Of a stretch of 44,736 nt of DNA, positions 15,795-21,313 are shown one piece after another; position 1 is the first letter of the stretch, and the number at the start of each line of letters is the position of its first letter. The translations under genes and the position numbers were made by a program. The notes under the pieces are model-generated. The model did no database searches, was not told the origin of the DNA, and worked only from the letters and a program-made list of their open reading frames with translations. Source of the stretch: Pseudomonadota bacterium (GTDB lineage Bacteria > Pseudomonadota > Alphaproteobacteria > SP197); contig JAQCLG010000013.1 of assembly GCA_027592745.1 (NCBI GenBank), positions 1-44,736 of the forward strand, read 5' to 3'.

Positions 15795-18089
15795 ATGATC
15801 GGACGGATTCTTGCCTACAGCGACCGGATCAGTGCCCGCCCGGGCGAGGAGATCGCGTTCAAGGTCAGTTGCGACGGCCCCGGTCGGTACGAGGCCGAGA
15901 TCGTCCGGCTGTGGAGCGCGACCGATGCCGAGGACGGCCCCGGCCTGCGCGAGGTCGTGATCCCTACCCCGGTCAACGGCAGCTACCCCGGCCGGTTCCA
16001 GCCGGTGCGAGCCGGCTCCCACGCCGTCGTTGCAGAGGCCGGCCTCGACGGGCTTTCGTCCTTCACCCTGGCCTGCGCCATCTGGCCGACGACACCGGGC
16101 AAGGGCGAGCAGGCGCTGATCGGCACACTCGACGGCAAGGGTGAAGGCGGTTTCCGGCTGCTGATCGATGCCGGCGCGCGTCCCTGCCTGCGCCTGGCGA
16201 CGCCGCAGGGAACACAGGATGTTGCGGTGAACACTGTTCTCCTGTCGCGCACCTGGTATCGGCTCGCGGCAAGCTGGGATGCCGCGACGGGCACCGCCGA
16301 ACTGCACTGCCTGCCCTGTCCCGGCGCAGCCAGTCCGCTGCGACCGGCCATGGCGCGCGCCTCCCTGCCCACGGCACGGCCTGCCAGCACAGGGCCGCTG
16401 CTGATGGCCGCGGCCCGCGACAGGGCGGGCGAACTGGCGAGCCATTTCAACGGCAAGCTCGAGGCGCCGCGTCTGCTCCAGGGCGCCTCGGCGCAGGCGG
16501 CGGAACTGCAGGGGGACACGCGGGAAATCCCCGCCGTGCTGTCCGCACGGGTTCTGGGATGGTGGGATTTTTCCCTGGAAATCCCCAGCCGCACCGTCGT
16601 CGACCGCTCGCCCTGGCAGCGTCACGGCCGCACGGTCAACCTGCCGGCGCGCGCCATGAAGGGCCTCTCCTGGGATGGCAGCGCCATGGACTGGCGCGCC
16701 AATCCGGCGCACTACGGCGCCATCCACTTCCACGACGACGACCTCGACGACTGCCGCTGGGAGACCGATTTCACGCTGACCGTGCCGCAGGACATGGCCA
16801 GCGGCTGTTATGCCGCCCGCCTCAGCAGCGGCGGCGACGAGGAATACGCCCCCTTCTACGTGCGCACGGCGCGCGATGCCGGCCATGCCGACATCGTCTT
16901 CCTGGCTTCCACGGCCAGCCACAACATCTACGGCAACTACCACAAGGCCGCCTATTCGGGGCACAGCGAGGTGATGAACAGCGGCTTCACGATCCTCTCG
17001 GAGGCCGCCGAATACCTCAGCCGCCACCCCGAACTGTCGGGCTCGACCTACGACTGGCACACCGATGCCAGCGGCATGGCCTATGCCACCCGCCTGCGGC
17101 CCATGCTCAACATGCGGCCCAAGACGGACCTCTGGTACTACGACGTCGATTCGCTGGTGGTCGACTGGATCGACCGCTGCGGCCTCGATTGCGACGTGGT
17201 CACCGACGAGGACCTGCACCTGGAAGGGCTGGCCGCGCTCGAACCCTACCGGGTGGTCGTCACCGGCCACCACCCCGAATACTACAGCCCCCAGATGCTC
17301 AAGGCCCTGGCGGCCTTCACCGAACGGGGCGGCCGCCTGATGTACCTGGGCGGCAACGGCTTCTACTGGAAGATCGCCTTCGATCCGGAGAACCCGGCGA
17401 TCGTCGAGGTGCGCCGCAGCGAGGGCGGCATCCGCGCCTGGGCGGCCGAGCCGGGCGAGGCCCATCACAGCTTCGACGGCGGTTACGGCGGCCTGTGGCG
17501 GCGCGCAGGCTATGCGCCCAACAGGCTCTGCGGCGTCGGCTTCACGGCCCAGGGCTTCGACGGCGCCGAACCCTACTGGCGCATGGCCGGTGCCGACGAT
17601 CCCCGCGCTGCCTTCATCTGGGACAGTATCGAGGACGACAAGGTCGGCGACTTCGGCCTGTTCGGCGGCGGCGCGGCGGGGGTCGAGACCGACCGCTACG
17701 ACGCCGACCTGGGTTCGCCGCCCCACGCGCTGATCGTGGGCCGTTCCAGGGACCACACGCCGGGCATCTTCCGCGTGCCCGAGGAACTGCTGGCCACCCA
17801 CAACATGATCGACGGCACGACCAACCCGCTGGTGCGCGCCGATCTGGTGTTCTTCGAGACCGCCGGCGGCGGCGCGGTGTTTTCCGTGGGTTCCATGGCC
17901 TGGGTCTGCGCCCTGCCCCACAACGGCTACGACAACAATGTCGCCCGGATGAGCGAAAACGTGCTGCGCCGCTTTGCCGATTCCGAACCCTTTGTTTTGC
18001 CCGGCGAGGACCGCATGGACGGGCGCGACCAGCAGACCCGCGAGTCCGGTTCGGACGGCGTCGTCGAGGGCATGGGCTACCGCACCTGA
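15795..18089 (+). CDS. N,N-dimethylformamidase large-subunit-like protein
   Basis: A 764-residue protein matching the overall build of the large subunit of N,N-dimethylformamidase, an iron amidohydrolase that splits dimethylformamide to dimethylamine and formate. An N-terminal jelly-roll/LamG-like part (to about 270) is followed by a domain with DIVFLASTASHNIYGNYHKA, TDLWYYDVDSLVVDWI, VVTGHHPEYYS and GGRLMYLGGNGFYWKI. The conserved tyrosines and downstream acidic residues (for example VEVRRSEGG) are candidates for the Tyr/Tyr/Glu iron site known in the Paracoccus enzyme. ATG 15795 is chosen over an upstream ATG at 15732, which reads into promoter sequence. No gene for the roughly 130-residue small subunit is seen, so the substrate may be another amide. 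Confidence 0.85.
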   Translation: MIGRILAYSDRISARPGEEIAFKVSCDGPGRYEAEIVRLWSATDAEDGPGLREVVIPTPVNGSYPGRFQPVRAGSHAVVAEAGLDGLSSFTLACAIWPTTPGKGEQALIGTLDGKGEGGFRLLIDAGARPCLRLATPQGTQDVAVNTVLLSRTWYRLAASWDAATGTAELHCLPCPGAASPLRPAMARASLPTARPASTGPLLMAAARDRAGELASHFNGKLEAPRLLQGASAQAAELQGDTREIPAVLSARVLGWWDFSLEIPSRTVVDRSPWQRHGRTVNLPARAMKGLSWDGSAMDWRANPAHYGAIHFHDDDLDDCRWETDFTLTVPQDMASGCYAARLSSGGDEEYAPFYVRTARDAGHADIVFLASTASHNIYGNYHKAAYSGHSEVMNSGFTILSEAAEYLSRHPELSGSTYDWHTDASGMAYATRLRPMLNMRPKTDLWYYDVDSLVVDWIDRCGLDCDVVTDEDLHLEGLAALEPYRVVVTGHHPEYYSPQMLKALAAFTERGGRLMYLGGNGFYWKIAFDPENPAIVEVRRSEGGIRAWAAEPGEAHHSFDGGYGGLWRRAGYAPNRLCGVGFTAQGFDGAEPYWRMAGADDPRAAFIWDSIEDDKVGDFGLFGGGAAGVETDRYDADLGSPPHALIVGRSRDHTPGIFRVPEELLATHNMIDGTTNPLVRADLVFFETAGGGAVFSVGSMAWVCALPHNGYDNNVARMSENVLRRFADSEPFVLPGEDRMDGRDQQTRESGSDGVVEGMGYRT

Positions 18090-18109
18090 AATCTCCTGCA
18101 CCTGCCCCC

Positions 18110-18138
18110 TTGACATCGCCGGTGCGCAAACGCATTTG
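18110..18138 (+). promoter_or_regulatory. Probable sigma-70-type promoter of the SAM-controlled operon
   Basis: A perfect TTGACA (18110-18115) is followed after 17 bp by CATTTG (18133-18138), a weak -10 box. A transcript starting a few bases downstream would begin at the first aptamer's P1 stem at 18145, which is just what a riboswitch leader needs. Confidence 0.55.
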
Positions 18139-18142
18139 CTCC

Positions 18143-18200
18143 CCAGCGCCGATTTGAACGACAGCTTGCGGGGCGCTTTACAAATTTCAGCTAAAGCGCC
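18143..18200 (+). promoter_or_regulatory. SAM-II riboswitch aptamer 1
   Basis: P1 is AGCGCC (18145-18150) with GGCGCT (18172-18177). Inside are the SAM-II core elements GATTTGAA, CAGCTTGCG and, after P1, TTACAAATTTC followed by AGCTAAAG. This order matches the alphaproteobacterial SAM-II (metA) class, which binds S-adenosylmethionine through a pseudoknot and represses methionine genes. An alternative 9-bp hairpin, GGCGCTTTA (18172-18180) with TAAAGCGCC (18192-18200), would exclude P1. GCCGTG (18198-18203) can pair with CACGGC (18218-18223), opening the terminator that follows. The genes downstream, osmC-like and metY, fit the class. The folding details are my own pairing, not computed. Confidence 0.8.
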
Positions 18201-18212
18201 GTGTTCTACATG

Positions 18213-18250
18213 AACCGCACGGCCGAAAAGCTGGGCGGTTTTTTGTTTTG
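18213..18250 (+). terminator. Riboswitch-controlled intrinsic terminator
   Basis: AACCGC (18213-18218) pairs with GCGGTT (18235-18240), extended inside by CGGC with GCTG, and is followed by a T-rich tract TTTTTTGTTTT. It lies 13 bp after aptamer 1 and well before any coding start, so it acts as an attenuator. Its 5' arm overlaps the CACGGC segment that can pair with the aptamer's 3' tail. Confidence 0.85.
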
Positions 18251-18282
18251 GGCTGATCCCCCACCGGCATGCCGAAAAGGAT

Positions 18283-18334
18283 CCGCGGGATTTGATGGGC
18301 AGCTTGCGTCCGCGTCACCAACCGCTAAAGCGCC
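18283..18334 (+). promoter_or_regulatory. SAM-II-like aptamer 2 (tandem copy)
   Basis: A second core reads CGCGG (18284-18288), GATTTGAT, GGGCAGCTTGCG, CCGCG (18310-18314, closing P1), then TCACCAAC and CGCTAAAGCGCC. It shares GATTTGA, CAGCTTGCG and GCTAAAGCGCC with aptamer 1. TGGGC in the loop can pair with GCGCCA in the tail, with one bulge, as the pseudoknot. The A-rich linker of SAM-II is less well conserved, so this could be a diverged SAM-II or the related SAM-V class, which is known downstream of SAM-II in marine alphaproteobacteria. Confidence 0.62.
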
Positions 18335-18352
18335 ACGGAGTGATCTCCGTGG
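18333..18352 (+). promoter_or_regulatory. Hairpin enclosing a possible GGAG ribosome-binding site and GTG start
   Basis: CCACGGAG (18333-18340) pairs perfectly with CTCCGTGG (18345-18352) around the loop TGAT. It begins inside the 3' tail of aptamer 2. GGAG (18337-18340) lies eight bases before GTG 18349, which is in frame with the osmC-like gene, so the hairpin could hide both the ribosome-binding site and an alternative start. Confidence 0.5.
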
Positions 18353-18381
18353 GCCCTCAATTCGGACCCGAAGATCGCGCC

Positions 18382-18918
18382 ATGACCACCACCCAGTTTT
18401 CCTTCCGTAGCGGCTTCAACGGCCTGCGCGACCATGTCGCGGCCACTCCCGGGGCTGCCGTGGCCACCTTCAGCGCGGCCAGCCGCCAGGTCGAGGGCCT
18501 GTGGAGCAAGGTGGCGGTGCGCGACTTTGCGCTCGATGTCGACGAACCCGCCGCCCTGGGCGGCACCGACAAGGGACCCAATCCGGTCGAACTGGTGCTG
18601 GCCGCGCTGGCCTCGTGCCAGGAGATCACCTACCGGCTTTATGCCGACCGCCTGGGCGTGCCGCTCGACGGCGTCTCGGTGACGGTGGAAGGCGACATCG
18701 ACCTGCGCGGCTTCACCGGCGCCGACGACAGCGTGCGCCCCGGCTTCCGCGACATCCGCATCAAGGTCGATCTCACCAGCAGCGCTCCGCTGGAGGCGCT
18801 GGAACGGGTGAAGGCGACCGTGGACAAGCATTGCCCTGTGCTCGACATCATCGGCAATGCCGTGCCCACGGCCATCACGTTTACTTCGGCAGAGGCTCAC
18901 ATACCGGCGGCGGAGTAG
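18382..18918 (+). CDS. OsmC/Ohr-family thiol peroxidase-like protein
   Basis: A 178-residue OsmC-fold protein. The two conserved cysteines are present, in LAALASCQEITYRLY and VDKHCPVLDI, with GPNPVELVLAALASC as the family signature. OsmC proteins reduce organic hydroperoxides through these thiols; several relatives have unproven roles. The start is uncertain: ATG 18382 has only a weak GAAG upstream, while GTG 18349, in the same frame, has a well-placed GGAG inside a hairpin. It is first in the SAM-controlled operon, 84 bp before metY, which suggests a thiol- or sulfur-related role rather than a simple stress response. It ends in TAG, with TGA ten codons later. Confidence 0.87.
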   Translation: MTTTQFSFRSGFNGLRDHVAATPGAAVATFSAASRQVEGLWSKVAVRDFALDVDEPAALGGTDKGPNPVELVLAALASCQEITYRLYADRLGVPLDGVSVTVEGDIDLRGFTGADDSVRPGFRDIRIKVDLTSSAPLEALERVKATVDKHCPVLDIIGNAVPTAITFTSAEAHIPAAE

Positions 18919-19002
18919 CCCCTGTCGAGGTTGCCGCGGGGGGCGGCATGAACGTGCCGTCCCCCTCCGTTCTTATACACGAAGCGTCCGGAGGACAGCA
19001 CC

Positions 19003-21313
<2,311 letters not shown>

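Follow-up and report, generated by a model that had tools for sequence, protein, structure and literature searches.

The question raised by this locus is whether two SAM-II-like elements placed in series within a single leader are two working riboswitches and, if so, which step of gene expression each of them controls. The leader is ~240 bases long and lies, in the window (the whole 44,736-nucleotide stretch of DNA analyzed), 3' of a dimethylformamidase-like gene and 5' of osmC-metY-hemB, as assigned with Pfam and NCBIfam. All features described here are on the forward strand. The operon comprises an osmC-like gene of 178 amino acids (18382-18918; PF02566, E = 7.6e-24); metY, for O-acetylhomoserine/O-acetylserine sulfhydrylase (19003-20292; TIGR01326, over cut-off); and hemB, for porphobilinogen synthase (20297-21313; PF00490 and NF006762). 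A TTGACA promoter, claimed in an earlier note on this DNA, was borne out in part: the -35 box TTGACA is present at 18111-18116, whereas the -10 element (CATTTG, about 18134-18139) is weak in the window, although relatives carry a TTGACA/TATA-like promoter directly 5' of the AGCGCC strand of P1, with a good -10 at the equivalent place. Judged from the sequence, the transcript would start at approximately the first base of copy A P1.

Two predicted SAM-II aptamers below the Rfam gathering score

The earlier note's observation of two SAM-II cores holds. In a cmscan of 18060-18420, RF00521 (SAM_alpha, SAM-II) gave 34.4 bits (E = 2.8e-6) for copy A over 18136-18214 and 28.8 bits (E = 9.6e-5) for copy B over 18275-18348, both below the gathering score of 36; no other family matched convincingly. 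A default Rfam scan, run at the gathering cut-off, accordingly reported neither copy, and the missing Rfam annotation means little at this locus. When the whole genome (3.85 Mb) was searched with RF00521, copies A and B were returned at E values of 7.2e-6 and 2.5e-4, respectively; the only other credible matches were a 73-bit copy and a 30-bit copy before the cys operon, and two stray matches had E values of ~6-8. Several orthologues of copy A exceed the gathering score, and in nearly every tandem the RF00521 score of copy B is below that of copy A. SAM-V (RF01826), which the earlier note had named beside SAM-II as a model to search with, was absent from the five matches at E <= 10 in 18060-18420, and SAM-II long loops (RF01726) reached copy B with 13.6 bits and an E value of 7; a SAM-V or SAM-II long-loops identity of copy B is not supported by these results.

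None of the SAM-II core motif nucleotides (GAUUUGA, CUUGC, and GCUAAAG) is changed in either copy, and both copies share with SAM-II their position before methionine or sulfur genes, namely metY in this operon and the class-wide regulon described below. We regard both as predicted SAM-II aptamers, and we infer that both bind SAM.

Copy A, its terminator, and a candidate antiterminator

Copy A (18145-18203), matched by RF00521 and conserved in relatives, has the SAM-II layout, in which P1 encloses GAUUUGA and CUUGC and is followed by GCUAAAG. Its P1, the 6-bp helix of the earlier note, is perfect (18145-18150 with 18172-18177), and its motifs are GATTTGA (18151-18157), CAGCTTGC (18162-18169), and GCTAAAGCGCC. 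The 3' strand of the pseudoknot is GCTAAAGCGCCGTG (18190-18203), and its pairing with L1 can be drawn as GCUU/AAGC, followed by C-G, A.C, G-C, C-G, and A-U. Comparison of own with foreign strands for this pseudoknot gave p = 0.17 over all A copies and p = 0.03 for the metY tandems.

An intrinsic terminator (18213-18249), also claimed previously, lies between A and B, with a stem formed by 18213-18223 and 18230-18240 (AACCGC-CGGC/GCTG-GCGGTT) and a broken T-run at 18239-18249. A simple terminator scan did not list it; it is supported by folding and by conservation, as an intrinsic terminator stands 3' of every A-type copy examined in the family (23 of 23), whether tandem or single, and whether before cysG, metY, or metZ-like genes. 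Upstream of it, GCCGTG (18198-18203) is complementary to CACGGC (18218-18223) in the terminator 5' arm, and the two strands would form an antiterminator (18198-18223). Among the 23 A-type copies, own strands paired at -11.65 kcal/mol versus -10.17 kcal/mol for foreign strands (p = 5e-5 in a permutation test that ignores relatedness), and the eight metY tandems taken alone gave a weak p = 0.07. In equilibrium folding, the terminator is the more stable form of copy A with or without the pseudoknot locked, and it wins in nearly all copies, so that an antiterminator would have to operate kinetically, while the RNA is being transcribed.

Copy B is a SAM-II subtype with an inserted hairpin

Copy B is abutted by a hairpin, P0 (18255-18283; GATCC at 18255-18259 with GGATC at 18279-18283), which in a comparison of 15 genomes is 100% paired, with both-sided changes in two pairs. 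The main part of copy B (18284-18332) is supported by the RF00521 match, by our own model, and by class-wide covariation, and it shares with copy A the three motifs recognized in the earlier note. A P1 of 5 bp (18284-18288 with 18310-18314) is followed along the strand by GATTTGA (18289-18295), the L1 pseudoknot strand GGGC (18297-18300), CAGCTTGC (18300-18307), and GCTAAAGCG (18324-18332). A further hairpin, P3 (18333-18352), is placed after GCTAAAGCG and ahead of the 3' strand of the pseudoknot; in it, covariation pairs CCACGGAG (18333-18340) with CTCCGTGG (18345-18352). The L1 strand 5' of CAGCUUGC pairs with a strand 3' of P3, by GGGC/GCCC in the window (distal strand GCCC, 18353-18356), and P3 is thus a hairpin inserted in the pseudoknot. 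A local pseudoknot, GGC/GCC, was considered as the sole pseudoknot of copy B and was dropped, because the class-wide alignment shows a covarying distal strand 3' of P3. An extra hairpin inserted in the 3' strand of a pseudoknot aptamer is also a feature of the preQ1-II riboswitch, the ligand, core, and regulon of which differ from those of copy B.

A covariance model of copy B (P1, P3, and GGGCCC), for which 14 family genomes served as the source, matched 79 of 385 genomes of the class Alphaproteobacteria at E <= 0.01, the weakest of these overlapping ordinary SAM-II matches, and 60 of 385 at E <= 1e-6; the genomes were taken one per species, and many are metagenome bins. The class alignment, drawn from 60 matched places, held 91 matches (85 B-type and 6 A-type). 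Over the 85 B-type loci, covariation is found in P1, P3, the distal pseudoknot, and the exchange between P3 and the Shine-Dalgarno (SD) region, by a test that is not tree-aware. Compensatory changes occur in four of the five P1 pairs, and both-sided changes occur in seven of the eight P3 pairs (87 distinct rows, with 96% of cells paired), while the whole B structure outscores every shuffle and every slid control. For the distal pseudoknot, L1 paired with its own distal strand at -6.24 kcal/mol versus -4.81 kcal/mol for foreign strands (74 loci; z = -8.8, relatedness ignored), and pairs read from sequences elsewhere include CGGAG/CUCCG, GAGC/GCUC, CAGG/CCUG, GAGGGGC/GCCCCUC, GGGAG/UUCCC, and GAGGAUC/GAUCCUC.

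Only 1 of 20 tested B loci outside the family passes the Rfam cut-off, and 4 more are seen below it. An A-type core lies within 330 bases upstream in 22 of the 85 B-type loci, 14 of these 22 being outside the family, and copy B is solitary in the other 63. Copy B is a separate SAM-II subtype with an inserted hairpin, mostly solitary across the Alphaproteobacteria, and is no plain duplicate of copy A. In one relative (L037, genome G002), AGCGATCTCC is duplicated in tandem within P3 of copy B.

The genes 3' of B-type RNAs include metZ, metX-like genes (by sequence), metY, metF, cysG, cysH, sulfite reductase, MetN, NlpA, and solute-binding proteins, a set of sulfur and methionine genes that fits repression by SAM. 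OsmC (PF02566) is encoded behind a B-type RNA in at least two further families (L185 in one; L191 and L202 in the other). Redox genes besides osmC are also found: peroxiredoxin-like genes lie 44 bases (L162, AhpC/TSA) and 201 bases (L170) 3' of a B-type RNA. At three loci (L209, L222, and L181), very short open reading frames with Cys codons (MTCCCP, MTTCCP, and MHRCPPSP) start at the B-controlled SD and may be leader peptides. Six others (L186, L204, L214, L218, L231, and L232) have similar small proteins of ~90-125 amino acids 3' of the B-type RNA, and none of those scanned matched a Pfam or NCBIfam model.

The 3' arm of P3 has two mutually exclusive partners

An anti-SD segment, TGATCTCCG (18341-18349), is located in the P3 loop and 3' arm and is complementary to the SD region before osmC, GAAGATCG (18370-18377). 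This pairing is weaker in the window than in relatives (GAAGA versus GGAGA, one mismatch), and within the family it is maintained by compensatory pairs (CGAUCUCC/GGAGAUCG, CAAUCUCC/GGAGAUUG, and GUCUCC/GGAGAC). P3 and the SD hairpin are mutually exclusive. Own P3-arm/SD pairing exceeded foreign pairing in the family (p < 5e-5; rank 2 of 720 in a cluster permutation, relatedness ignored) and across the class (74 loci; z = -7.8, relatedness ignored), and the longest reaches up to 11 perfect pairs (L156). Moreover, in L183 (before metF), L224, and L187, a terminator-like U-run lies 3' of the alternative hairpin formed by the P3 arm, which identifies the alternative pairing as the OFF form. The earlier note's division of labor, with the first aptamer acting on transcription and the second on translation, gains computational support from this comparative evidence for both the terminator and the SD-sequestering platform.

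The computation found A and B as aptamers, the terminator between them, P0, P1, P3, the distal pseudoknot, and, for the 3' arm of P3, two partners that exclude each other. On this basis, we consider that the osmC-metY-hemB leader probably consists of two SAM-II riboswitches in series, A being a transcriptional and B a translational OFF switch. At high SAM, the pseudoknot of copy A would be stabilized and GCCGUG occupied, leaving the terminator 5' arm free, so that transcription would stop at 18240-18249; without SAM, GCCGUG would pair with the terminator 5' arm to form the antiterminator. Read-through transcripts would then carry copy B. Without SAM, P3 (CCACGGAG/CUCCGUGG) would conceal the anti-SD and the osmC start would be open, whereas with SAM the P3 5' arm would lose its first nucleotides to the pseudoknot, and the freed 3' arm would pair with the SD and stop translation. 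Both steps would shut down the sulfur-amino-acid operon at high SAM, and a steeper SAM response from the two stages is possible.

The direction of copy B might also be the reverse. In such a SAM-ON switch, the SAM-bound form, with P1, both pseudoknot helices, and P3, would hide the anti-SD and open the SD; together with the OFF switch A, the leader would be a band-pass filter, and the operon would be on only at intermediate SAM. The distal pseudoknot is the equivalent of the canonical SAM-II P2 helix, with P3 inside it, and when this pseudoknot alone was locked in equilibrium folding, the SD became more accessible in 39 of 66 loci and less accessible in 5, as the SAM-ON reading would have it. 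Locking the local pseudoknot (GCUAAAGCGCC) lowered accessibility in 20 of 66 loci and raised it in 6, and in the window the unpaired fraction of the SD underwent a small change on locking, from 0.34 to 0.22. Equilibrium folding was rejected as an arbiter, since its result depends on which pseudoknot is locked, and the direction of copy B thus rests on the regulon and on the terminator-like relatives. Both speak against SAM-ON: (i) B-type RNAs stand mostly before genes of sulfur and methionine supply, which SAM should not switch on, and (ii) the alternative hairpin ends in a terminator-like U-run in L183 (metF) and L224. Furthermore, SAM-II and SAM-V regulation, as described in the literature covered, represses such genes at high SAM. 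We therefore favor an OFF switch that works by strand exchange and consider the SAM-ON, band-pass reading unlikely; copy B likely turns expression off at high SAM.

Copy B might instead respond to a ligand other than SAM, such as a close relative of it, which would make the tandem a two-input gate. Its periphery is unlike that of SAM-II and its Rfam scores are poor, but its core (GAUUUGA, CUUGC, and GCUAAAG) and its regulon equal those of SAM-II, and we hold a different ligand to be very unlikely.

The tandem in the family, and copy B without copy A

We compared 15 relatives from the same family, which makes up the whole order among the sampled genomes. The comparison of related genomes proposed in the earlier note shows the arrangement to be conserved: the A-B tandem recurs in all five genera (g1-g5), and P0, P1, and P3 are supported by covariation. 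The tandem stands before metY or osmC-metY in g1, g2, and g4 and before an operon of sulfite-reductase-like, cysH, and cysI genes in g3 and g5; osmC is confined to g1 and g4. Since osmC has been lost in several relatives, yet copy B and its SD pairing are kept, osmC translation is not the only target of copy B. One genome (G003, L038) has three SAM-II copies in 1.6 kb, namely an A-type copy before a metZ-like gene, followed by an A-B tandem before sulfite-reductase-like and cysH genes.

Five g2 genomes are without a leader-adjacent metY, their best paralogue having 51-52% identity versus 82-93%. In one of them (G006, L042), from which this metY has been lost, copy A is decaying, with its core mutated to GGTTCGA, CTCGC, and GCCGAAG, while copy B is intact; in the other four (G008, G010, G011, and G014), copy A is absent and copy B is intact. 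Copy A thus follows metY, and copy B is kept alone. In all five genomes (L042, L044, L046, L047, and L050), copy B alone lies ~350-430 bases 5' of hemB, the interval containing no clear gene, and in the four that lack copy A its own promoter immediately precedes it. Control of hemB by SAM is possible in these genomes.

These losses bear on the notion that copy A is the sole functional switch and copy B a decayed or structural duplicate. While the lower Rfam score of copy B in nearly every tandem would suit such a relic, copy B is the more strictly kept of the two in the five genomes above, is mostly solitary across the class, and has pairs that covary, all of which makes a duplicate highly improbable. 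Chance resemblance, or an unstructured repeat, has a negligible probability: the scores are below the curated cut-off, but E values of 1e-6 to 1e-4, recurrence of the paired arrangement across genera, and compensatory changes already refute it.

Relation to known SAM riboswitch arrangements

SAM-II (RF00521), first described in PMC1273637, is known before metA and metZ of Sinorhizobium (PMC9373788), and the copies studied here resemble it in P1, the pseudoknot (a candidate one in copy A), the GAUUUGA/CUUGC/GCUAAAG core, and gene context; copy B differs by its P3 hairpin, which separates GCUAAAGCG from the 3' strand of the pseudoknot. Tandem SAM-II doublets have been published, with 44 examples, some having a terminator after the first aptamer and ribosome-binding-site control by the second (PMC9481103). 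Our leader is alike in its two SAM-II aptamers and in the proposed terminator-then-RBS division, and the locus or its relatives may be among those 44 examples; the P3 insert and the P3/SD strand exchange of the second copy are not described there. In Pelagibacter, a SAM-II/SAM-V tandem precedes bhmT (PMC5069961, PMC9481103, PMC11508383). It likewise has a SAM-II with a terminator first and a translational aptamer second, but its second aptamer is SAM-V, whereas here it is SAM-II and SAM-V has no match. Sulfur limitation raises Pelagibacter osmC and metY, both located behind SAM riboswitches, with osmC among the most induced genes (PMC5069961). The earlier note's suggestion that a tandem before an OsmC gene would be a new gene context is not supported, as osmC belongs to that Pelagibacter regulon and OsmC genes stand behind B-type RNAs in at least two other families.

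The tandem adds another instance to a published arrangement, and neither it nor its osmC context is new in kind; the copy B subtype and its strand-exchange platform appear to be new. We found no description of a P3-insert subtype in the openly accessible main texts searched, and earlier surveys may include such RNAs without comment. The main gain is copy B, a widespread SAM-II subtype mostly below the Rfam cut-off, and covariation allows both states of its platform to be read. If the subtype is confirmed, it would enlarge the SAM-II regulon (osmC, cysG, cysH, metN, and others), and the transcriptional A and translational B would provide a natural pair of subtypes for asking why bacteria stack two switches for the same ligand.

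The region between osmC and metY

A separate riboswitch between osmC and metY (18884-18935) was considered and rejected, as this segment has no Rfam match and consists mostly of the osmC 3' end or a relic of it. In the window, a hairpin within 18884-18966 has the loop CAU(A)..CGGCGGCGGAG and covers the stop codon of osmC; a strong GC hairpin comes next, 5' of metY. Both sequence and hairpin persist in g2 genomes without most of osmC. One osmC relic of 45 codons (L048:1611-1745) seems to retain the original start region and the C-terminus.
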